DNA of 64,000 nt from Cognatundibacterium squillarum (GTDB taxonomy: Bacteria > Pseudomonadota > Gammaproteobacteria > Burkholderiales > Burkholderiaceae_D). This document shows positions 35,644 through 45,384 of the stretch, piece after piece (within the stretch, counting starts at the first letter, position 1; every line of letters starts with the position of its first letter). The DNA lies in the NCBI RefSeq assembly GCF_014652435.1, contig NZ_BMYU01000002.1:372001-436000 (forward strand), written 5' to 3'. The notes under the pieces were generated by a model, which worked only from the letters and a program-made list of their open reading frames with translations, did no database searches and was not told where the DNA came from. A program made the translations under genes and the position numbers.

Positions 35644-35847
35644 CGTCAGTCTGACCTTGCATTACAGACATGCAAATTTCATCATAAAGACAAGACTGTA
35701 GCAGTCTGCGTGCGCAGTTTGCAATTTCGTTACAGAAATTTTCATGACGGATAAACCGGTATTTCCAAATGACGCCTCGCTGACGCTGTACCCGACTGGT
35801 CTGTTTCTTGCATCCTCAGACTACATCTCGTTTACTCTGGGTGAAAA

Positions 35848-36495
35848 ATGGCGAAGTCCGGGACGGCCAATGCCGAAGCATTGCGTATTGTGGTGGTGAA
35901 TGCTGCCGGTACGCTGTCATCGGAAGATACTGAAGCGGACGCAGCACAAAAGCGGCGTTCCGCCACTTTGCGTATCGGCTTGCTGCAAGCCGGTTACGAC
36001 ATCATTGCCTCTCTGCCCGGCGATATGTTTCTGATCGACCGTATCCGCCAGCTGGAGCCGGATATGATAATTATTGATGCCGAATCTGATGCACGCGACG
36101 TACTGGAGCATCTGGTGATCATGTCGCAGCAGGCACCGCGTCCTATCGTTTTATTCACCGATGATGAAGACCCCGGCCATATGCGCAGTGCGCTGGAGGC
36201 GGGTGTTTCGGCGTATGTGGTCGCCGGTCTGCAGAGTGAACGCATCAAACCGGTGCTGGAAGTAGCGATGGCGCGCTTTCAGGTTGATCAGCAGGTCAGA
36301 AACGAGCTGGCAGAAACCCGCACCCGCCTTGCAGAGCGCAAATACATAGAAAAGGCCAAGGGTTTTTTAATGCAGCGCTTTTCTTTCTCGGAAGAAGAGG
36401 CGTATCAGCGCCTGCGCAAACAAGCAATGGAAAAAAACCTGCGTATCGGTGATCTGGCAAAACGCATTCTTGATGCCGCCGACCTGATAGGCTGA
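35848..36495 (+). CDS. nasT: Nitrate-responsive ANTAR antiterminator NasT
   Basis: A 215-residue regulator. The N-terminal half is a receiver-like domain (RIVVVNAAGTL, then PDMIIIDAESD with the position of the phospho-acceptor Asp kept, and FTDDEDPG). A coiled coil (about 145-160) leads to the C-terminal ANTAR domain, IEKAKGFLMQRFSFSEEEAYQRLRK, whose A-K-G-x-L-M and A-Y-x-x-L-R residues bind RNA. NasT-type proteins bind paired hexanucleotide-loop hairpins in leaders and prevent termination. Precisely such a leader lies 120 bp downstream, before the nitrate transporter operon. The usual partner sensor NasS is not encoded next to it. Start at 35848 follows GGGTGAAAA, a modest ribosome site. Confidence 0.92.
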   Translation: MAKSGTANAEALRIVVVNAAGTLSSEDTEADAAQKRRSATLRIGLLQAGYDIIASLPGDMFLIDRIRQLEPDMIIIDAESDARDVLEHLVIMSQQAPRPIVLFTDDEDPGHMRSALEAGVSAYVVAGLQSERIKPVLEVAMARFQVDQQVRNELAETRTRLAERKYIEKAKGFLMQRFSFSEEEAYQRLRKQAMEKNLRIGDLAKRILDAADLIG

Positions 36496-36499
36496 TCTT

Positions 36500-36540
36500 T
36501 TTTGGTGCGGCGCACCAAAATATTGCTCATTTTTTGAGCA
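36500..36540 (+). terminator. Two tandem hairpins after nasT
   Basis: TTTTGGTGC and GCACCAAAA form a 9-bp stem with a three-base loop (36500-36520), and TGCTCA/TGAGCA with a T-rich loop follows (36524-36540). They begin 5 bp after the nasT stop and probably terminate it, though no long T tract follows either hairpin. GCACCAAAATATTGC within it is also a weak NtrC-like element. Confidence 0.5.
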
Positions 36541-36589
36541 GAACAGAAAACCAGTCGGGATTTTTGGTCAAAAAACAGGTGATTCCGGC

Positions 36590-36605
36590 TGGCACACTGT
36601 TTGCA
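36590..36605 (+). promoter_or_regulatory. Sigma-54 promoter of the nitrate assimilation operon
   Basis: TGGCAC-ACTGT-TTGCA matches the -24/-12 consensus (TGGCAC-N5-TTGCA) at every position. The start of transcription would be about 12 bases after the GC, near 36616, directly at the first hairpin of the ANTAR leader. Sigma-54 implies an NtrC-type activator, hence control by general nitrogen status. Confidence 0.8.
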
Positions 36606-36616
36606 TAACAGTGTTT

Positions 36617-36665
36617 GCACCAAAGAAGGTGCGCCCTGTGAACCGGCTAACGGCGGCTGTTCACA
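36617..36665 (+). promoter_or_regulatory. ANTAR-target two-hairpin leader (NasT-binding RNA)
   Basis: Hairpin 1: GCACC and GGTGC enclose the hexaloop AAAGAA (36622-36627). Hairpin 2: TGTGAA, a bulged C, then CGGCT pair with GGCTG and TTCACA using two G-U pairs, enclosing the hexaloop AACGGC (36649-36654). Both loops have A at position 1 and G at position 4, the features defined for ANTAR-bound leaders. A terminator follows 7 bases later, as antitermination requires. Confidence 0.8.
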
Positions 36666-36671
36666 TCAGAC

Positions 36672-36724
36672 AAAGGTGTCTCTTCATTCTGCATTGCGGA
36701 ATGAACAGACGCCTTTTTGCTTTT
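36672..36724 (+). terminator. Leader terminator (attenuator) before the nitrate transporter operon
   Basis: AAAGGTGTCT pairs with AGACGCCTTT (one G-T pair) and an inner TTCATTC/GAATGAA stem stacks on it, then TTTTTGCTTTT follows. It would stop transcription 28 bp before the nasF start unless NasT stabilises the preceding hairpins. Confidence 0.85.
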
Positions 36725-36751
36725 CTGAATCTTAATCACGAAGGAGCTGCG

Positions 36752-38032
36752 ATGAGTGAAGTCAATCTGAAGTCCGCGTCTGAAACCGACACACTGTCAC
36801 AGACCTGCGATCTGCCACGCCGGAAATGGATACAAGGAGCGAGTGCAATGCTGGGAGCAGGATTACTGGGGCAAACCCCGCAGGTCTGGGCGGCGGGCAG
36901 CGATAAGCCGGAAAAAGAAGAAGTCCGGGTTGGCTTTATTCCGCTGACCGATTGCGCATCGGTTGTCATGGCATCCGTGCTTGGGTTTGACAAAAAATAC
37001 GGCATCAAAATTATCCCGACCAAGGAATCGTCCTGGGCCAGCGTGCGCGACAAACTCGTCAATGGCGAACTGGATGCAGCCCATGTTTTGTATGGTTTGA
37101 TTTACGGTGTACAGCAAGGCATAGGCGGCCAGAAAAAGGATATGAATGTCCTCATGACACTGAACCATAACGGTCAGGCCATTACTTTGTCGAAAGCACT
37201 GGCGGATAAGGGTGCAGTGAATGGTGCGGGACTGGCAAAACTGATGCAGACCGAAAAGCGCGAATACACCTTTGCCCAGACTTTTCCTACCGGCACCCAT
37301 GCGATGTGGCTGTATTTCTGGCTTGCGCAACATGGCATTCATCCGCTGAAAGACGCCAAAGTCATTACCGTGCCGCCGCCGCAAATGGTAGCCAATATGC
37401 GGGTTGGCAATATGGATGGTTTCTGCGTGGGTGAACCGTGGAATCATCGTGCAATTGTGGACCGCATCGGCATTACTGCTGCCACCACTCAGGAAATCTG
37501 GAAAGACCATCCGGAAAAAGTGCTGGGCACCACAGCCGAATTCAGTAATAAGTATCCGAACACCGCGCGTGCGCTGATCGCAGCTGTGCTGGAAGCGAGC
37601 CGCTGGATTGACGCTTCGCTGTCGAATAAAAACAAAATGGCGGAAGTCATCGCCGATAAAGCCTACGTCAATACCTCGGTTGATGTAATTAACCAGCGCA
37701 TTCTGGGCCGTTACCAGAACGGTTTAGGAAAAACCTGGGACGATCCTGATCACATGAAATTCTTCAATGACGGCGCGGTGAACTTCCCTTATCTGTCGGA
37801 CGGCATGTGGTTTATGACCCAGCACAAACGCTGGGGCTTGCTGAAAGCTGATCCGGATTATCTGGCGGTAGCGAAAGCCGTTAACCGGATCGACCTGTAC
37901 AAAGACGGCGCTGCAAAAGCCGGTGTCAGTGTGCCGAAAGAGTTAATGCGCAGCAGCAAGCTGGCGGATGGTACGGTCTGGGATGGCAAAAATCCGGCGG
38001 CCTATGCAGCTGGTTTCAAGATCAAGGCCTGA
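36752..38032 (+). CDS. nasF: ABC nitrate transporter substrate-binding protein (NrtA/CmpA family)
   Basis: A 426-residue exported binding protein with a twin-arginine signal (LPRRKWIQGASAMLGAG, cut near QVWAAGS). The mature part starts with VRVGFIPLTDCASVVMA, then FDKKYGIKI and the CmpA/NrtA segments GTHAMWLYFWLAQHGIHP and VGEPWNHRAI typical of nitrate or nitrite binders. It would capture nitrate in the periplasm for the permease and ATPase genes that follow. The start at 36752 has AAGGAG 6 bases upstream; the frame is open further back into the leader terminator, which cannot be coding. Expression depends on sigma-54 and probably NasT antitermination. Confidence 0.92.
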   Translation: MSEVNLKSASETDTLSQTCDLPRRKWIQGASAMLGAGLLGQTPQVWAAGSDKPEKEEVRVGFIPLTDCASVVMASVLGFDKKYGIKIIPTKESSWASVRDKLVNGELDAAHVLYGLIYGVQQGIGGQKKDMNVLMTLNHNGQAITLSKALADKGAVNGAGLAKLMQTEKREYTFAQTFPTGTHAMWLYFWLAQHGIHPLKDAKVITVPPPQMVANMRVGNMDGFCVGEPWNHRAIVDRIGITAATTQEIWKDHPEKVLGTTAEFSNKYPNTARALIAAVLEASRWIDASLSNKNKMAEVIADKAYVNTSVDVINQRILGRYQNGLGKTWDDPDHMKFFNDGAVNFPYLSDGMWFMTQHKRWGLLKADPDYLAVAKAVNRIDLYKDGAAKAGVSVPKELMRSSKLADGTVWDGKNPAAYAAGFKIKA

Positions 38033-38042
38033 GGACATCATC

Positions 38043-38930
38043 ATGAATAAATCCTTACCCGCCAGTATCAGCGATAAACCCGCTGCCTTGCCGCGCTCGC
38101 CACAGTCTTCAAGCGTGCAGCGTTTTTTTCAGCAATGGTGGCAGGCATTTTCTGTGCGCCGCTTACTGTTACAACTGATACCGGCCATGGCTGGCCTTGC
38201 TCTGCTGGTTTTAATCTGGCAAATCATTTCGTTTAAAAACAGCAGCATTCCGAGCCCGGAGCAAACCTGGACAGAAGCACGCATTGTATTCAGCGATCCG
38301 TTTTATCAGCATGGCCCGAATGATCAGGGCATAGGCTGGAATATTCTGGCATCGCTGAAACGGGTTGCGCTGGGCTTTGGCTTAGCGGCGCTGGTCGGCA
38401 TTCCGCTCGGCTTTCTCAGCGGTCGTTCTGCCTTCGCTCACCGCATGCTGCAACCGCTGATCAGTCTGCTGAAACCGGTATCGCCGCTGGCCTGGCTGCC
38501 GATTGGTTTACTGATTTTCAAATCTGCCAATCCGGCCGCGATCTGGTCCATTTTTATCTGTTCTATCTGGCCGCTGATTATTAATACCGCCACCGGTGTT
38601 CAGCGGGTACCGCAGGATTATCTGAATGTGGCACGGGTACTGAATCTGAGCGAGTGGAAAATTCTGACCAAAATTCTGATTCCCGCAGTATTACCGCATC
38701 TGCTGACCGGCGTGCGGCTGGCAATCGGTACAGCATGGCTGGTGATTGTGGCAGCTGAAATGCTGACCGGCGGTGTCGGTATCGGTTTCTGGGTCTGGGA
38801 TGAATGGAACAATCTGAACGTGCCCCATATCCTGATTGCGATTTTTGTGATTGGTATCGTGGGATTGATGCTGGAGCAGGCACTGGTTGCACTGGCGAAA
38901 ATGGTGACTTACGAGGATACAGGAGCCTGA
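38043..38930 (+). CDS. nasE: ABC nitrate transporter permease (NrtB family)
   Basis: A 295-residue inner-membrane permease. After a polar N-terminus of about 45 residues come six hydrophobic segments. The binding-protein-dependent transport signature is in the loop EWKILTKILIPAVLPHLLTGVRLAIGTAWLVIVAAEM, referenced here by its EAA-like core (positions about 205-240). The conserved LKPVSPLAWLPIGLL and the final WDEWNNLNVPHI are those of nitrate/taurine-type permeases, closest to NrtB. It starts 10 bp after the binding-protein gene and ends 1 bp before the ATPase gene. The frame is open 25 codons upstream, but an ATG at 38043 with GAGGACATC fits the family length. Confidence 0.9.
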   Translation: MNKSLPASISDKPAALPRSPQSSSVQRFFQQWWQAFSVRRLLLQLIPAMAGLALLVLIWQIISFKNSSIPSPEQTWTEARIVFSDPFYQHGPNDQGIGWNILASLKRVALGFGLAALVGIPLGFLSGRSAFAHRMLQPLISLLKPVSPLAWLPIGLLIFKSANPAAIWSIFICSIWPLIINTATGVQRVPQDYLNVARVLNLSEWKILTKILIPAVLPHLLTGVRLAIGTAWLVIVAAEMLTGGVGIGFWVWDEWNNLNVPHILIAIFVIGIVGLMLEQALVALAKMVTYEDTGA

Positions 38931-38931
38931 C

Positions 38932-39759
38932 ATGTCTGAACTGAACCTTACGGCGCACGATAAAAAGTATATTGAGATTCAGCAAGTGAACATGGTGTTT
39001 CACAGTAAGGGCAAAGCCTTTCATGCGCTGAAAGACATCAATCTGCAAATCCGTCGCGGTGAATTTATTTCGCTGATCGGCCACTCCGGTTGCGGCAAAT
39101 CCACCTTACTGAACCTGATCGCCGGTCTGACGACACCAAGCGAAGGTAATGTGCTGTGTGCGCAGCGCGAAGTGCGCGGGCCAGGCCCGGAACGTGCTGT
39201 CGTGTTTCAGAATCATTCCCTGTTACCGTGGCTGACCTGCTTTGAAAATGTGTATCTCGGCGTGGAGCGCGTATTTTCGCGTAAAGAGTCTGCCCACAAA
39301 CTGCGCGACCGCACTGAAGCCGCTCTGGCACTGGTGGGCTTATCACATGCAGCGAAAAAACGTCCGAATGAAATTTCCGGTGGTATGAAACAAAGGGTAG
39401 GAATTGCCCGTGCGCTGGCTATGCAGCCTCAGGTTTTACTGATGGATGAACCTTTCGGTGCACTGGATGCGCTGACCCGTGCGCATTTGCAGGATGAATT
39501 ACTGAAAATCGTGGCACAAACACAGTCCACCGTAGTGATGGTGACCCACGATGTGGATGAAGCGGTATTGCTGTCTGACCGTATCGTTATGCTGACCAAC
39601 GGCCCTGCCGCCACCATTGGTGAAGTGCTGGAAGTACCGCTCGCCCATCCGCGCGACCGGGTTGCACTGGCGCAGGACAGTGAATATCAGCGCTACCGCA
39701 GTGCCGTGCTGGAGTTTCTGTATCACCGTCAGCAGCATCCTTCCGAACACGCCGCCTGA
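38932..39759 (+). CDS. nasD: ABC nitrate transporter ATP-binding protein (NrtD family)
   Basis: A 275-residue ATPase for nitrate import. It has Walker A (GHSGCGKST), the Q-loop (VVFQNHSLLPWLTC), the signature ISGGMKQRVGIARAL, Walker B (VLLMDEPFGALDALTR) and the switch His (VMVTHDVDEA). NHSLLPWLT after the Q-loop is typical of the nitrate/sulfonate group. Its start lies 1 bp after the permease stop; nirB begins 16 bp after its end. There is no C-terminal binding domain such as NrtC carries, so it belongs to the NrtD type. Naming of nasF/E/D varies between species; the role does not. Confidence 0.92.
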   Translation: MSELNLTAHDKKYIEIQQVNMVFHSKGKAFHALKDINLQIRRGEFISLIGHSGCGKSTLLNLIAGLTTPSEGNVLCAQREVRGPGPERAVVFQNHSLLPWLTCFENVYLGVERVFSRKESAHKLRDRTEAALALVGLSHAAKKRPNEISGGMKQRVGIARALAMQPQVLLMDEPFGALDALTRAHLQDELLKIVAQTQSTVVMVTHDVDEAVLLSDRIVMLTNGPAATIGEVLEVPLAHPRDRVALAQDSEYQRYRSAVLEFLYHRQQHPSEHAA

Positions 39760-39775
39760 ACACAGGAGAATTGCG

Positions 39776-42218
39776 ATGAAAAAATTACGTCTGGTACTGG
39801 TCGGCAATGGCATGGCCGGTGTGCGTACCATCGAAGAAGTGCTGAAGCTTGCTCCGGATTTATACGAAATCACGGTATTCGGCAGCGAGCCCTGGCCGAA
39901 CTACAACCGCATTCTGCTATCTCCGGTACTGGCGGGTGAACAAACCCTGCAGGATATCGTGCTGAATGACTGGGACTGGTACAAAAGTAATGGCATTACC
40001 CTGCGTACCGGCACCACCATCACAAAAATCGATCGCCACCGGCGCGAAGTAATTGCTGATGATGGCAGCGTCACACCGTATGACAGGCTGATTCTGGCGA
40101 CTGATTCTGGCGACTGGTTCTACGCCATTTATGCTGCCGGTGCCGGGTCGCGAATTACAAGGCGTGATCGCTTACCGCGATATTGCGGATACTGAGGCGA
40201 TGATACAGGCGGCGCAGCAATACAAACATGCGGTAGTGATCGGTGGCGGTTTGCTTGGACTGGAAGCAGCGAATGGCCTGCGCCAGCGCGGTATGGAAGT
40301 CAGCGTGGTGCATTTGCCGGGCTGGCTGATGGAAAGACAGCTGGACCCGGTTGCTGCCGGTTTACTGCAGCAGTCACTGGAGCAAAAAGGCTTACAGTTT
40401 TTACTCGGCAAAAACACTGCTGCGCTGCTCGGCAACACTGAAGGTCGCGTGCGTGCAGTGCGTTTCAGTGACGATACCGAAGTCGCCGCTGATCTGGTTG
40501 TGATGGCGGTTGGCATACGTCCGAATACTGCTCTGGCGGAATCGGCCGGCCTGCATTGCCAGCGCGGCATCGTGGTGAATGACACCATGCAAACCTATGA
40601 TCCGCGTATTTACGCCGTCGGCGAATGCGTTAATCACCGTGGCACCGCCTATGGTCTGGTTGCGCCACTGTTCGATATGGCGAAAGTCTGTGCCAATCAT
40701 CTGGCGGAATTCGGTATCGGCCGTTACCAGGGTTCGGTGACCTCAACCAAACTGAAAGTCACCGGCATTGATCTGTTTTCTGCCGGCGATTTCATGGGTG
40801 GAGAAGGCAAGGAAGAAATTGTCCTGTCCGATCCTAACGGCGGTATTTACAAAAAACTGGTACTTCAGGATAACAAACTGATCGGCGCCTGCCTGTACGG
40901 TGATACAGCAGACGGTGCATGGTATTTCCGACTGTTACGCGAAGCAAAAGATATCAGCAGCATCCGTGATCAGCTGATGTTCGGCGAAAGCAGTATCGGC
41001 GACACCGGGCACGAGGGACATTCGCTGGCCGCAGCCATGCCGGATACAGCGGAAGTCTGCGGCTGTAACGGGGTTTGCAAAGGCACTATCGTCAAAGCGA
41101 TACGGGAAAAGGGTTTGTTCACGATTGAGGATGTGCGCAAACATACCAAAGCATCGGCTTCCTGCGGTTCCTGTACCGGACTGGTGGAACAAATTATTGT
41201 CAGTACTGCCGGTGGCGATTATTCGGCCAGTCCGCGTAAAAAAGCCATGTGCGGCTGTACCGACCTGACGCATGCCCAAGTCAGAACTGCGATCCGCGAC
41301 CTGCATTTACTGACGATTCCGGCGGTACAAAAACAATTGCAATGGCGCAGCGCAGACGGTTGCACAAGTTGCCGTCCGGCACTGAATTACTATCTGATAT
41401 CCACCTGGCCGCAGGAAGCGAAAGATGATCCGCAATCGCGCATGATCAATGAGCGTTCGCATGCCAATATCCAGAAAGACGGCACTTACTCGGTGATTCC
41501 GCGTATGTGGGGTGGCGAAACCAGTGCGGCAGACTTACGCCGCATCGCCGATGTGGTCGAAAAATATCAGATTCCTACCGTCAAAGTAACAGGCGGTCAG
41601 CGTATTGATTTACTCGGTGTGAAAAAAGCCGATTTGCCGGCGGTTTGGGCCGATCTGGGCATGCCTTCCGGCCTGGCCTACGCCAAGGGGCTGCGTACCG
41701 TCAAAACCTGCGTAGGCAGCGAATGGTGCCGTTTCGGCACGCAGGACTCGACGTCGATGGGTAAGCAGCTGGAACGCGCACTGGCGCGCATGTATGCACC
41801 CCATAAGGTCAAACTGGCGGTATCCGGTTGCCCGCGCAATTGTGCCGAAGCCGGCATCAAAGATGTGGGCGTCATCGGCGTGGATTCCGGCTGGGAAATT
41901 TATGTCGCGGGCAATGGCGGTATCAAAACCGAAGTCGCGCAATTTCTGGTGAAGGTAAAAACCGCTGAAGAAGTAATGGAATACACCGGCGCTTTCCTGC
42001 AGTTATACCGGCTGGAAGGCTGGTATCTGGAGCGCACTGTGCATTATGTCAGCCGGGTCGGGCTGGACTATGTGAAATCCGTCATTCTGCAGGATGCGGA
42101 AAAACGCCGCGCACTGTATGAAGAATTACTGTTTGCACTGAGTGGTGAAGCTGATCCGTGGCATCAGCCACAGGCCGCGCAAGTCGATACCCGTCAGTTC
42201 GCAACGCTGAGCGTTTGA
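39776..42218 (+). pseudogene. nirB: Nitrite reductase large subunit NirB, frameshifted
   Basis: The two parts of one NADH-dependent siroheme nitrite reductase lie in different frames. Part 1 (39776 to about 40100) has the FAD start RLVLVGNGMAGVRTIEE and reaches YDRLILAT. Part 2 (frame of 40131-42218) has the NAD loop VVIGGGLLGLEAANGL, two BFD-type [2Fe-2S] segments (CGCNGVCKGTIV, SCGSCTGLVE), and the 4Fe-4S/siroheme cysteines (TCVGSEWCRFG, SGCPRNCAEAG). A 13-bp tandem duplication at 40088-40113 shifts the frame. Removing one unit gives YDRLILATGSTPFMLPVPGRELQ, a perfect NirB sequence of 809 residues in total. AGGAGAATTGCG before 39776 is the ribosome site. The part-2 frame alone would lack its FAD domain. 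Confidence 0.88.
40088..40113 (+). repeat. 13-bp tandem duplication disrupting nirB
   Basis: CTGATTCTGGCGA occurs twice in direct contact (40088-40100 and 40101-40113). Thirteen is not a multiple of three, so the frame shifts. Exact deletion of one unit restores a conserved NirB segment. Replication slippage is the likely cause and could reverse. Confidence 0.92.
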
Positions 42219-42234: not shown

Positions 42235-42573
42235 ATGTCTGCATGGAAACCTGTTTGTCTGGTCAGCGATATTCCGCGTCAGGGCGCACGCATACTGCAA
42301 CGTCAGGGCTTGCCGGATGTCGCTATTTTCCGTACCGGCGAGAATCAGATTTTTGCACTGGTTGATCGTTGCCCGCATAAAGGCGGTCCCTTGTCGCAGG
42401 GCATGCTGATCGGTGACAAAGTGGCCTGCCCTTTGCATAACTGGCATATCGATCTGGCTACCGGTGAAGCCGTAGCGCCGGATCAGGGTTGCGCCGCCCG
42501 CTTTCAGATCCGGCTGGAACATGAGCAAGTGTTGCTGGATGAAACGGAATTGCAGTGTCTCGGAAAAATCTGA
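42235..42573 (+). CDS. nirD: Nitrite reductase small subunit NirD, Rieske type
   Basis: A 112-residue partner of NirB. The Rieske ligands are intact: CPHKGGPL and CPLHNWH supply the Cys-x-His and Cys-x2-His pairs, so it should hold a [2Fe-2S] cluster, unlike E. coli NirD, which has lost them. This form is common in assimilatory enzymes. It begins 16 bp after the nirB stop with AAGGAAAATCAC as ribosome site and is followed 24 bp later by nasA. The reading frame is undamaged, so the lesion in nirB has either arisen recently or does not abolish selection on the rest of the operon. Confidence 0.92.
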   Translation: MSAWKPVCLVSDIPRQGARILQRQGLPDVAIFRTGENQIFALVDRCPHKGGPLSQGMLIGDKVACPLHNWHIDLATGEAVAPDQGCAARFQIRLEHEQVLLDETELQCLGKI

Positions 42574-42597
42574 TCTGAACACACGGAGACCTGCACA

Positions 42598-45384
42598 ATG
42601 TCAGCCAGCACAGAAACGAAGAGTACCTGCTGTTATTGCGGCGTAGGTTGTGGTGTCATTATCACGGCGGAACAGGGTCAGATTACCGGCGTGCGCGGTG
42701 ATCCGGATCATCCCGCTAATTTCGGTCGTTTGTGCAGCAAGGGCAGTCAGTTGCACATGACCAGTACGCCGCTGATACAAGCACAACGCCGCCTGCACCA
42801 GCCCATGCTGCGTCAGCGGCGCGATCAGGCGCTGACCATCAGCGACTGGGATTCCAGTATCGCTTATGTGGCAGAACGTATCAGCAACACGGTGGCTGAG
42901 CACGGGCCGGACAGCATTGGTTTTTATGTTTCCGGCCAGTTACTGACCGAAGACTACTATCTGTTCAATAAACTGGCACGCGGTCTGATCGGCACTAATC
43001 AGATCGACAGTAATTCACGGCTGTGTATGTCCAGCGCGGTTGCCGGCTATAAACAATCTCTGGGGAGCGATGCCCCACCCTGCAGCTATGAAGATCTGGA
43101 TCATGCGGATCTGGTGCTGATCATCGGGGCAAATCCTGCCTATGCCCATCCTGTGCTGTACCGCAGACTGGAAGCAGCACGCGCCAGAAAACCGGAAATG
43201 AAGCTGGTGGTGGTCGATCCGCGCCGTACCGATAGCGCTCAGGATGCCGACTTACATCTGGCGATTAAACCGGGCAGCGATGTGGCCTTACTGAACGGGC
43301 TGCTGCATATCTGTCTGTGGGAAGGCTGGACACAAGCCGCATGGTTAGACGCACATACCAGCGGACTGGAAGCATTGCGTGACAGTGTGCGCGACTGCAC
43401 ACCGGAACAAACTGCAACGCTGTGCGGCGTTTCTGCTGATGACATATATTTGCTGGCACGCTGGTTTGCGCAATCTGCAGCCAGCTTATCACTGTATTGT
43501 CAGGGCCTGAATCAGTCCAGTGCCGGTACAGCTAAAAACAGCGCTTTAATCAATCTGCACCTGATGACAGCGCAGATAGGCCGTCCCGGCGCAGGTCCCT
43601 TTTCACTGACCGGTCAACCGAATGCGATGGGCGGACGGGAAACCGGCAGTATGGCGAATTTGCTGTGTGCGCATCGTGATCTGAGCAATGCAGATGACCG
43701 TGCAGAAGTGGCGAATTTCTGGGGAATTCCCGAAATTCCGGCGCAAGCGGGCAGTACCGCAGTCGATATGTTTGAAGCCACACGTAAGAGCAAGATCCGC
43801 ATTTTGTGGATAGTCTGCACGAATCCGGCGCATTCCTTACCGGCGCAGGCGCAAGTCAGAGCTGCGCTGGAAACGGCCGAACTGGTAATCGTGCAGGAAG
43901 CCTTCCGCGATACCGCCACCGCGGCCTATGCCGATGTGTTGCTGCCGGCTGCCAGCTGGGGGGAAAAAGAGGGAACAGTCACGAATTCTGAGCGCCGCAT
44001 CTCGCGGGTACGCGCTGCCATCGCACCACCCGGCAATGCCAGAGCCGACTGGTGGATTGCCAGTCAGATCGGATTAGCGATACAAACCCGCTTCCCGCAG
44101 CATTTTCCGCACAAACAGACACTGCGTTTAGCTTATGACAACACCGAACAAATCTGGAATGAACACCGCGAACTGACACGCGGACGCGATCTGGATATCA
44201 CCGGACTCAGTTACCGCTTGCTGGAGCAGTCACCGCAACAATGGCCTTGCCCAGAAGGACAGCATACAGGTCAGGCACGCCTGTACACCGATTTTCGCTT
44301 TGCACATGCGGACGGCAAGGCGCGTCTGATCTGTACGCCTTACCAGCCTGCACAGGATAAAGTGAATGCCAGAACGCCATTTGTCCTGAGCACTGGCCGC
44401 CTGCGCGATCACTGGCATGGCATGAGCCGTACCGGCGTCACACCGGCGGCATTTGCGCACCAGCCGGAACCCATGCTGGAAATGCATCCGCAGGATATGG
44501 AAGCGCGTTTTCTGAAACATGGCGATACTGTTTGTATTCGCAATACACGCGGCCAGCAAATCTGGCGTATCCGCGCAAATCCAGCCTTACGCAGCGGTAT
44601 GCTGTGGCTGCCTATGCACTGGGGAGAGGAATTTGTCTGGGGTAATGCAAACGGTTATACCGGACTGGGCGTTAACAATCTGGTCAGTCCGGCGCTGGAT
44701 CCGAAGTCCTTTCAGCCTGAACTGAAATTCAGCACGGTCAGCCTGCAAAAACAGTCATTCCCATACAGCCTGCAATTGATCTGCAGAGCGGACCCGCATC
44801 AGATTCCGGCAATGCAGCGCGCCTGTCGCCAGCTCCTGCGCGATCAGCCTTATGTGGAATGTATTCCTTTCGGCGGCACAGCTTCCGGCATTGCCTTGTA
44901 TGCCTGTCTGCAACAAGCGGAACCCGTTTTATTTGCAGCCTTGACCGAAGTTGCCGGATTGCAGCAGCATGCCCATTTGCGGTATCAGGACGCACAGCGC
45001 AGTACGCGCCTGATCCGTCTGGAAAACCGGCAATTGCATACGGTGATGCAAACTGGCAGTCAAACACTGCCTGACTGGTTAGTGCAATGGCTGAAGGAAG
45101 CGAAAGAAATCACTGTGCCTGTTTCTTTGCTGTTACAGGACAAAGCGCCGGCCGGAATCGCCGTGCAACGCAGCGTGCAGGTTTGTCAGTGTCTCGGCGT
45201 CAGTGCAGCGCAGATTACGCAATATCTGGAACAACAGGAAACACCCGCGACACCAGAAGCTGAACAGGCTGTACTGCTGGGACTGCAGCAACATCTGCAA
45301 TGCGGCACACGTTGCGGTTCCTGTGTGCCGGAGCTGAAACAAAGCATACGGGCATTGCGTCAGAAAGTACTGCATGTTGCCTGA
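42598..45384 (+). CDS. nasA: Assimilatory nitrate reductase catalytic subunit
   Basis: A 928-residue molybdopterin enzyme that reduces nitrate to nitrite in the cytoplasm. The N-terminal 4Fe-4S site is CCYCGVGCGV plus the Cys of GRLCSKG. The molybdenum pocket includes SNSRLCMSSAVAGYK with the Cys that can bind Mo, and later QPNAMGGRETG. The C-terminal 70 residues are a BFD-like [2Fe-2S] domain (VQVCQCLGVSAAQIT and CGTRCGSCVPELKQ), which in NasA proteins links the enzyme to its electron donor. No Tat signal is present, which separates it from periplasmic NapA. GGAGACCTGCACA before the ATG is the ribosome site. It is the last gene of the operon. Confidence 0.95.
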   Translation: MSASTETKSTCCYCGVGCGVIITAEQGQITGVRGDPDHPANFGRLCSKGSQLHMTSTPLIQAQRRLHQPMLRQRRDQALTISDWDSSIAYVAERISNTVAEHGPDSIGFYVSGQLLTEDYYLFNKLARGLIGTNQIDSNSRLCMSSAVAGYKQSLGSDAPPCSYEDLDHADLVLIIGANPAYAHPVLYRRLEAARARKPEMKLVVVDPRRTDSAQDADLHLAIKPGSDVALLNGLLHICLWEGWTQAAWLDAHTSGLEALRDSVRDCTPEQTATLCGVSADDIYLLARWFAQSAASLSLYCQGLNQSSAGTAKNSALINLHLMTAQIGRPGAGPFSLTGQPNAMGGRETGSMANLLCAHRDLSNADDRAEVANFWGIPEIPAQAGSTAVDMFEATRKSKIRILWIVCTNPAHSLPAQAQVRAALETAELVIVQEAFRDTATAAYADVLLPAASWGEKEGTVTNSERRISRVRAAIAPPGNARADWWIASQIGLAIQTRFPQHFPHKQTLRLAYDNTEQIWNEHRELTRGRDLDITGLSYRLLEQSPQQWPCPEGQHTGQARLYTDFRFAHADGKARLICTPYQPAQDKVNARTPFVLSTGRLRDHWHGMSRTGVTPAAFAHQPEPMLEMHPQDMEARFLKHGDTVCIRNTRGQQIWRIRANPALRSGMLWLPMHWGEEFVWGNANGYTGLGVNNLVSPALDPKSFQPELKFSTVSLQKQSFPYSLQLICRADPHQIPAMQRACRQLLRDQPYVECIPFGGTASGIALYACLQQAEPVLFAALTEVAGLQQHAHLRYQDAQRSTRLIRLENRQLHTVMQTGSQTLPDWLVQWLKEAKEITVPVSLLLQDKAPAGIAVQRSVQVCQCLGVSAAQITQYLEQQETPATPEAEQAVLLGLQQHLQCGTRCGSCVPELKQSIRALRQKVLHVA

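Follow-up and report, generated by a model that had tools for sequence, protein, structure and literature searches.

The window analysed here, a 64,000-nucleotide stretch of Cognatundibacterium squillarum (contig NZ_BMYU01000002.1, positions 372,001 to 436,000), carries nasT and, behind it, the nitrate-assimilation genes nasF-ntrB-ntrC-nirB-nirD-nasA. From its sequence, the region at 36590-36752 reads as the control unit of this operon in an Undibacterium-like bacterium: a sigma-54 promoter leading into an RNA leader with three hexaloop hairpins (P0, P1 and P2) and an intrinsic terminator. For the unit with P1 and P2 as the working pair we put the probability at about 0.85. Loops of six bases with A at position 1 and G at position 4 (A1/G4) are termed AnnG hexaloops. 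The features, in window coordinates, are:

35848-36495, + strand: nasT (profile search, PF03861 match of 69.6 bits)
36493-36509, unstranded: NtrC-like site 1, centred at about -115, matching the NtrC consensus at 8 of 12 letters
36511-36527, unstranded: NtrC-like site 2, centred at about -97, 8 of 12 letters of the same consensus
36590-36605, + strand: sigma-54 promoter TGGCAC-ACTGT-TTGCA, exact match to TGGCAC-N5-TTGCW (-24/-12)
36617-36632, + strand: P0, extra 5'-terminal AnnG hexaloop hairpin GCACC[AAAGAA]GGTGC
36637-36665, + strand: P1, AnnG hexaloop hairpin with loop AACGGC at 36649-36654, canonical first ANTAR hairpin
36668-36681, + strand: P2, AGAC[AAAGGT]GTCT, AnnG hexaloop on the 5' arm of the terminator, antiterminator hairpin
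36672-36718, + strand: intrinsic terminator from folding and pair counts (5' arm 36672-36681, 3' arm 36707-36716, T run)
36741-36746, + strand: ribosome-binding site AAGGAG, read from the sequence, ahead of the nasF ATG at 36752
36752-38032, + strand: nasF, nitrate-binding protein of the NrtA type (PF13379, 341 bits; twin-arginine motif RRKWIQG at the N-terminus, by eye)
38046-39759, + strand: nitrate ATP-binding cassette (ABC) permease (TIGR01183) and ATPase (TIGR01184), both over cut-off
39770-42218, + strand: nirB by profile match, with a frame shift near 40090-40115
42235-45384, + strand: nirD (TIGR02378, over cut-off) and a NasA-type assimilatory nitrate reductase (sub-cut-off matches and context)

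The product of nasT, which the first-pass annotation had correctly placed directly upstream, reads as an ANTAR protein with a receiver-like N-terminal domain, although its Response_reg match of 21.2 bits lies under the cut-off of 30.2. It gave the only ANTAR match in the 98.66%-complete genome, and no NIT nitrate-sensing domain of the NasR type was found, the window's NasT being ANTAR plus the weak receiver match with no second ANTAR protein in the genome. The nearest relative by NasT search is Undibacterium rugosum (75% identity).

The C of TTGC lies by convention at -12, which would put the transcription start at about 36616 on the + strand, one base ahead of the first stem. The exact promoter pattern occurs once in the 64-kb window, and with one mismatch allowed there are five matches against 2.95 expected, so that the motif by itself is weak evidence and conservation carries the case. 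A NasT search provided 77 loci, of which 73, together with the window, made up 74 loci where a PF13379 gene follows nasT (L043 and L085 lacked the pair, L088 and L089 a nasT match). The box TGGCA[CT]-N5-[TC]TGC lies 78-306 bp past the nasT stop in 60 of these 74, which bears out the earlier proposal of a consensus sigma-54 promoter feeding an ANTAR leader with almost no spacer. In the remaining 14 the PF13379 gene follows nasT directly, and a leader positive with a covariance model stands further downstream in all 14. Later counts use 59 boxed loci, leaving out these 14 and L046, whose contig is cut; in L076, the model-found leader is at another place and has no box beside it.

Genes for RpoN and NtrC are present in the genome, the latter at 631.7 bits, or 684.3 with a neighbouring stretch (cut-off 558.6). 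With an NtrC-like site defined as at least 7 of 12 letters of the NtrC consensus, tandem sites exactly 18 bp apart were found upstream of the box in 46 of the 59 loci (shuffle mean 2.3), and other spacings between 14 and 45 bp in 1-13 loci each. No sigma-70-type promoter was found between nasT and nasF (0 in 35650-36800; shuffles 0.9). Ahead of nasT, a sigma-54 box of the strict pattern was present in 1 of 75 loci and absent from the window, where position 35797 offers only TGG-N9-TGC, a loose match. The inverted repeat TGCTCATTTTTTGAGCA (36524-36540) was rejected as a nasT terminator, being listed by the scan on the minus strand only, and also as an NtrC site, where it reaches 8 of 12 letters but the conserved pair is the 18-bp tandem.

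In the predicted leader RNA, P2 and the 5' arm of the terminator have 36672-36681 in common; since P2 takes up this arm, the two structures are mutually exclusive. Folding of 36616-36751 with RNAfold recovered the annotated hairpins (z = -4.84, with 0 of 200 shuffles equally stable), and P0 and P1 alone gave z = -2.13 with 6 of 200 shuffles equally stable. Folds of the growing transcript had P2 formed at 65-90 nt and displaced by the terminator at 95-105 nt, and the leader reached -39.5 kcal/mol with P2 forced versus -50.7 kcal/mol when free. A simple terminator scan of the region did not list the terminator at 36672-36718 because its stem is interrupted. A possible pairing between the 3' arms of P1 and the terminator (CTGTTCA with TGAACAG) was spotted by eye in the window and is not used as evidence.

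Conservation of this arrangement was followed in an alignment of 43 of the 59 leaders, outside which were L014, L015, L016, L053, L071, L073-L076 and L086, and the near-identical L023, L035, L044, L049, L057 and L079. All four P2 pairs are formed in 43 of 43 leaders, with the outer pair altered on both sides in seven, and pairing holds in 93.8% of alignment cells for P1 and 96.5% for the terminator. The strong terminator, AAGGAG and ATG described in the first-pass annotation are all present in the window. For P0, 77.9% of cells are paired and four of its six pairs have changes on both sides. A1 and G4 are invariant in the P1 and P2 loops of all 43, and two Comamonadaceae loci outside the alignment have a P2 counterpart, GAAC[AAAGGC]GTTC. 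A natural exception to the A1 rule is seen in Rhizobacter (L073, L074, L086), where P2 is GGAC[GATGGC]GTCC with G at loop position 1. On the genome of the window the covariance model scored 150 candidates and returned one leader, at 75 bits, with the runner-up at 17.6; among plasmid records nothing resembled the leader.

Because the strict hairpin count used preset windows (P0 loop start at 29-36, or 29-39 in a second leader set; P1 at 17-32 before P2), spacing was recounted without them. Of 55 P2-bearing leaders, 50 have their closest AnnG hairpin at a distance of 22-27 from P2, and the other five at 58 or 60. The window combines A1/G4 six-base loops, P2-terminator overlap and fixed P1-P2 spacing, by which an ANTAR dual hexaloop is recognised. 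The established ANTAR mechanism places its second hairpin at the 5' base of the terminator, as described for the EutV, NasR and AmiR leaders (PMC3369931, PMC3369936), which makes P1 and P2 the canonical pair here and P0 an additional hexaloop. The first-pass annotation had instead chosen the AAAGAA and AACGGC hairpins, P0 and P1, as the ANTAR pair and listed nothing in the linker behind them; those two hairpins do fold and do carry A1/G4, but the pair is AACGGC with AAAGGT, and the linker is P2. That NasT on P0 and P1 blocks a separate terminator with no third hairpin involved, as the stable folds and A1/G4 loops of both would allow, we consider very unlikely. Neither P0 nor P1 overlaps the terminator, so that NasT bound there would not exclude it; the AGAC..GTCT linker is paired in every aligned leader; P0-P1 spacing varies from 25 to 83, whereas the nearest-to-P2 distance is nearly constant; P1 and P2 are kept without a canonical P0 in 21 of 59 leaders, 11 of which still have the P0 stem; and in the EutV, NasR and AmiR leaders just cited it is the second hairpin that stands at the terminator base.

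Under the strict criteria, P0 is an AnnG hexaloop whose loop lies 32-36 bases from the box start in 34 of 59 leaders (letter-shuffle fraction 0.25%), and 29 of the 59 have all of P0, P1 and P2. With no position preset, 34 of the 55 P2-bearing leaders had their first AnnG hairpin at 32-36 and the other 21 had it at 38-62. The second leader set, from other nitrate operons, comprises the 14 loci with PF13379 behind nasT and seven further ones that carry a second leader, as well as two Undibacterium species, Glaciimonas and one Herbaspirillum. Each of its leaders has a sigma-54 box, 24 of 25 have all three hexaloops, and a nirB relative lies downstream in 22 of 25; the first gene in L138 reads by eye as a narK of the major facilitator superfamily (MFS). 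Three hexaloops per leader also occur in five genomes of the class that belong to three other families (L143/L192, L145/L195, L200, L165 and L202); the sigma-54 pattern applied here matches no box at any of them, so a third hexaloop may be independent of sigma-54.

By analogy with EutV, P0 is probably a recruitment site for NasT. The EutV dimer has been proposed to bind a single hexaloop at a time, on a recruitment hairpin and then on the emerging antitermination hairpin (PMC8934654), and under such a model P0, being 5'-terminal, would recruit NasT earlier still. The RNA-contact residues of EutV align, with an assumed two-residue numbering offset, with R164, K165, K169, K171, E182 and Y186 of NasT, which are invariant in 17 aligned NasT proteins except for K169 (K or R). 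P0 might alternatively be a mere stabilising hairpin at the 5' end of a sigma-54 transcript that NasT ignores, an alternative that concerns the role of P0 only and that we find doubtful. It fits the position of P0 at the 5' end wherever it is present, the retention of the stem in 11 leaders with a non-canonical loop or closing pair, and the way leaders elsewhere in the class open with a promoter-near hairpin (of 15 distinct sites with a box, nine have their first AnnG loop at 35-41). A stabiliser would need no A1/G4, yet 34 of the 36 six-base-loop hairpins at the P0 place are AnnG, as is P0 in 25 of 25 second-set leaders, where the search asked for AnnG only.

Taking P1 and P2 as the working pair and P0 as the likely recruitment site, the following sequence of events is proposed. 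Under nitrogen limitation, phosphorylated NtrC on the tandem sites at about -115 and -97 would open the sigma-54 promoter at 36590, as the sites themselves suggest. RNA starting at about 36616 would fold its AnnG hairpins in the order P0, at the very 5' end, then P1 and P2. Without NasT, the far more stable terminator would prevail and a leader of about 100 nt would be released. Active NasT on the hexaloops would hold P2 and let the polymerase pass, in keeping with the ANTAR mechanism, P1 and P2 acting as the standard pair; P0, the first to leave the polymerase, would be an added recruitment hairpin from which NasT could be handed on to P1 and then P2.

Several observations weigh against this account. 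RNAfold adds an A-U pair inside the free P2 of the window, leaving a four-base loop, and P1 of the window closes by U-G, while the closing pair preferred by NasR in systematic evolution of ligands by exponential enrichment (SELEX) is described as C-G (PMC7496416). P2 covariation consists of one outer pair, in relatives from Herminiimonas and Oxalicibacterium; in the alignment, L034 has its P0 out of register, and the sequences of L039 and L041 end before the terminator; and many loci are closely related, so that the counts are not independent. The NtrC-like sites of the window reach just 8 of 12 letters each, and a spacing of 13 is raised as well (28 versus 11.2). Twenty-five of the 59 leaders fail the P0 criteria: four retain the stem but have five bases in the loop (L021, L024, L034, L035), seven of a Herbaspirillum type keep it minus the C-G closing pair, ten have P1 and P2 only, and four (L014, L015, L053, L076) have no clear pair there. 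A general requirement for P0 is therefore excluded, and the stem might instead contribute to the stability of the RNA. Finally, narK of Bradyrhizobium is described as having a predicted NasT hairpin yet rising in a nasT deletion (PMC6759348), so that such a hairpin does not prove activation.

Control by nitrate through NasT presupposes a sensor. NasS, described as a cytoplasmic NrtA relative that restrains NasT when nitrate is absent (PMC3795266), was not found among the PF13379 matches of the genome, of which there are two: NasF, with its twin-arginine (RR) motif, and a protein of 84.5 bits that lies next to a different ABC permease and was not matched by NasF. Seventeen genomes with the same layout (nasT, leader, exported NasF, ABC genes) were searched, the L034 genome standing outside this genome-wide PF13379 search, and matches above 270 bits were counted as strong. 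Among the matches listed, to which the following counts also refer, none of the 17 has a signal-less strong PF13379 protein; NasF alone exceeds 270 bits in 11, and six have a second such protein with an RR motif and its own ABC genes. Where a NasS-like protein adjoins nasT, it scores 289-324 bits in the 11 genomes of that layout that were searched, eight of which have a second strong RR-motif PF13379 gene elsewhere and three none. In G010 and G011, RR motifs are also present in the PF13379 proteins that reach about 150 bits.

A possible link between the two protein types is seen in Undibacterium. In a protein tree from which 12 rows, short or without the start motif, were left out, 18 NasS rows fall on one side of a branch (100/99), and the NasF-like rows from U. 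griseum and U. oligocarboniphilum are nested within Undibacterium NasF, grouping at 97/94 with U. aquatile and U. rivi. These two proteins adjoin nasT (U. griseum L014, 5947-7245, with RR changed to HH; U. oligocarboniphilum L015, 5861-7246). No nitrate ABC permease over cut-off was found in either species; the local leader is degraded (29.5 and 23.5 bits), and a three-hairpin leader stands at another nitrate operon. Of 170 positions that NasF and NasS share, the NasF-like proteins of these species have lost 0, and of 111 NasF-only positions 14, against 3 and 5 in one control and 3 and 3 in the other; the shared positions are more constrained in general too. For these two species this suggests that NasF can serve as a partner of NasT, and L014 and L015 may possibly represent a transporter-to-sensor conversion inside one genus. 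The stretch AWVAGSD[KR]PE, which ends the NasF signal, is retained in some signal-less proteins.

Proteins with a twin-arginine signal fold in the cytoplasm before export, and NasF, with its RR motif, should therefore do the same. We accordingly offer, tentatively, a switch without NasS, in which the P0-P1-P2 relay serves NasT and NasF itself would be the nitrate sensor, its unexported nitrate-free form restraining NasT in a self-limiting loop. A sensor role for NasF has several points to its discredit. Linked NasF and unlinked NrtA clades are alike at the shared positions, with 3 and 3 of 170 lost. In-frame starts inside NasF are preceded by weaker GGAG or AGGAG sites in some loci and by none in many; an internal start at ATG 36848, behind AAGGAG and inside the twin-arginine signal, was rejected as a general source of a cytosolic form, that Shine-Dalgarno form being common to L013 only. 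Among nine nasT genomes outside the family, four have one strong PF13379 gene and five (G154, G180, G183, G269 and G276) have two, the second being signal-less and NasS-like in G154 and G269 and fused behind an ATPase in G183 and G276; in G154 and G269 (L206, L207) an exported NasF follows nasT and the NasS-like gene lies a few kb off. Exported NasF and a signal-less NasS-like protein can thus coexist outside this family. A gene named nasS is also reported in Acidovorax citrulli (PMC10052978), a further point against the sensor role.

With NasS missing, NasT might also be constitutively active, leaving nitrogen control by NtrC as the only control, an alternative to the sensing step alone that strikes us as rather unlikely. 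It agrees with the lack of a signal-less strong PF13379 protein throughout the 17 genomes, among the matches listed, and with a Paracoccus nasS mutant described as making nas products without nitrate (PMC5424462). The retained strong terminator, P2 and RNA contacts of NasT would, however, be pointless for a permanently active NasT, and in U. griseum and U. oligocarboniphilum, which have no nitrate permease over the cut-off, nasT still has a NasF-like protein next to it. In L060, L064, L066, L070, L077, L079, L080 and L053, a signal-less NasS-like gene downstream of nasT is preceded by a sigma-54 box and by a leader with P1 and P2 (P2 of L053 being imperfect), so that NasT would there control the supply of its own antagonist.

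Two described RNA families resemble the window's leader. At the Rfam gathering score there was no match in the window or in 12 relatives, narK RNA and P11 appearing only below threshold. The narK RNA consensus (RF03032), like the window, has a sigma-54 box, in its case GGCaC-agcuc-UUGCU, followed by two ANTAR hairpins, GGcagCC[AACGGC]GGcugCC and CGAC[AAAGAC]GUCG, but the model has no P0 and the window reaches 17.5 bits where 43.2 is the gathering score. The consensus of the Pseudomonas small RNA (sRNA) P11 (RF00625) similarly contains UUGGCACAagcaCUGCA, a C[AACGau]G hairpin, GGAC[AAAGGC]GUCC and a terminator half GGACGCC, whereas it is curated as an sRNA and the window scores 18.5 bits against 70. 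Both models match the same site, below the gathering score, in six genomes (G055, G156, G201, G252, G298 and G366), and in a 369-genome sample of the class narK RNA exceeded its gathering score in two genomes and P11 in one. One contig of G191 carries a signal-less NasS-like gene, nasT, narK RNA (55.1 bits), an MFS narK-like transporter identified by eye and, 3.6 kb further on, P11 (126.2 bits) ahead of the apparent nirB start. On these sequences RF03032 and RF00625 are best read as sigma-54 promoters with NasT (ANTAR) leaders, and P11 would probably be the released terminated leader. The two models treat the letters of the -24/-12 promoter as RNA.

Dual control by the nitrogen regulation (Ntr) system and nitrate is not new in itself: the nas operon of Klebsiella oxytoca, which begins with nasF, is described as combining Ntr control (NtrA/B/C) with nitrate antitermination (PMC5424462), and sigma-54 promoters for ANTAR genes and for nitrate ABC genes already appear in a large computational survey (PMC12316311). 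The Klebsiella nasF leader, compared here by its published description, likewise has AnnG loops in P1 and P2, with P2 on the terminator (PMC3369936, PMC3369931), but P1 and P2 are what is described, against three hexaloops in the window, and its regulator is the NIT-ANTAR protein NasR rather than a NasT with a receiver-like domain. The NasS-NasT systems described for Paracoccus, Azotobacter, Pseudomonas and Bradyrhizobium share NasT, a hairpin-terminator leader and downstream nas genes (PMC3795266, PMC5424462, PMC6759348), whereas the window's genome has no detected NasS and the order is nasT, leader, exported NasF. Enterococcus EutV eut leaders also have a dual hexaloop with the second on the terminator, for which a hand-off from recruitment to antitermination is proposed (PMC8934654), but the receiver there is phosphorylated and there are two hairpins against three here. 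No ANTAR leader with a third hairpin or hexaloop was found among the papers listed from the openly licensed literature, judged by titles and the beginnings of abstracts. What looks new is thus the third hexaloop, locked to the promoter and start, and a NasT without detectable NasS in this family.

Elsewhere in the operon, nirB contains a perfect 13-bp tandem duplication (GATTCTGGCGACT twice) at 40090-40115, which shifts the frame and gives open reading frames at 39770-40195 and 40131-42218. Its counterpart in L013 is a single open frame over the whole part covered, and the shift may be a recent mutation, a slippage variant or an assembly error. In Herbaspirillum seropedicae, nasFED and narK-nirBD-nasA are described as two regions of the genome (PMC3093359).

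Existing ANTAR models describe either a dimer holding both hairpins at once (PMC3369931, PMC3369936) or one that first occupies a recruitment hairpin and is then handed on to the antitermination hairpin (PMC8934654). The leader described here, which holds a third hexaloop at a set distance from the start and is found in two operon contexts, allows a direct test of the hand-off model, with the prediction that P0 should boost read-through chiefly when NasT is scarce or the polymerase is fast. Reinterpretation of narK RNA and P11 would put two RNA families into a known regulon and reveal promoter letters that had been modelled as RNA. If it is true that NasF replaces NasS, a transport protein caught before its export would act as a cytoplasmic sensor.

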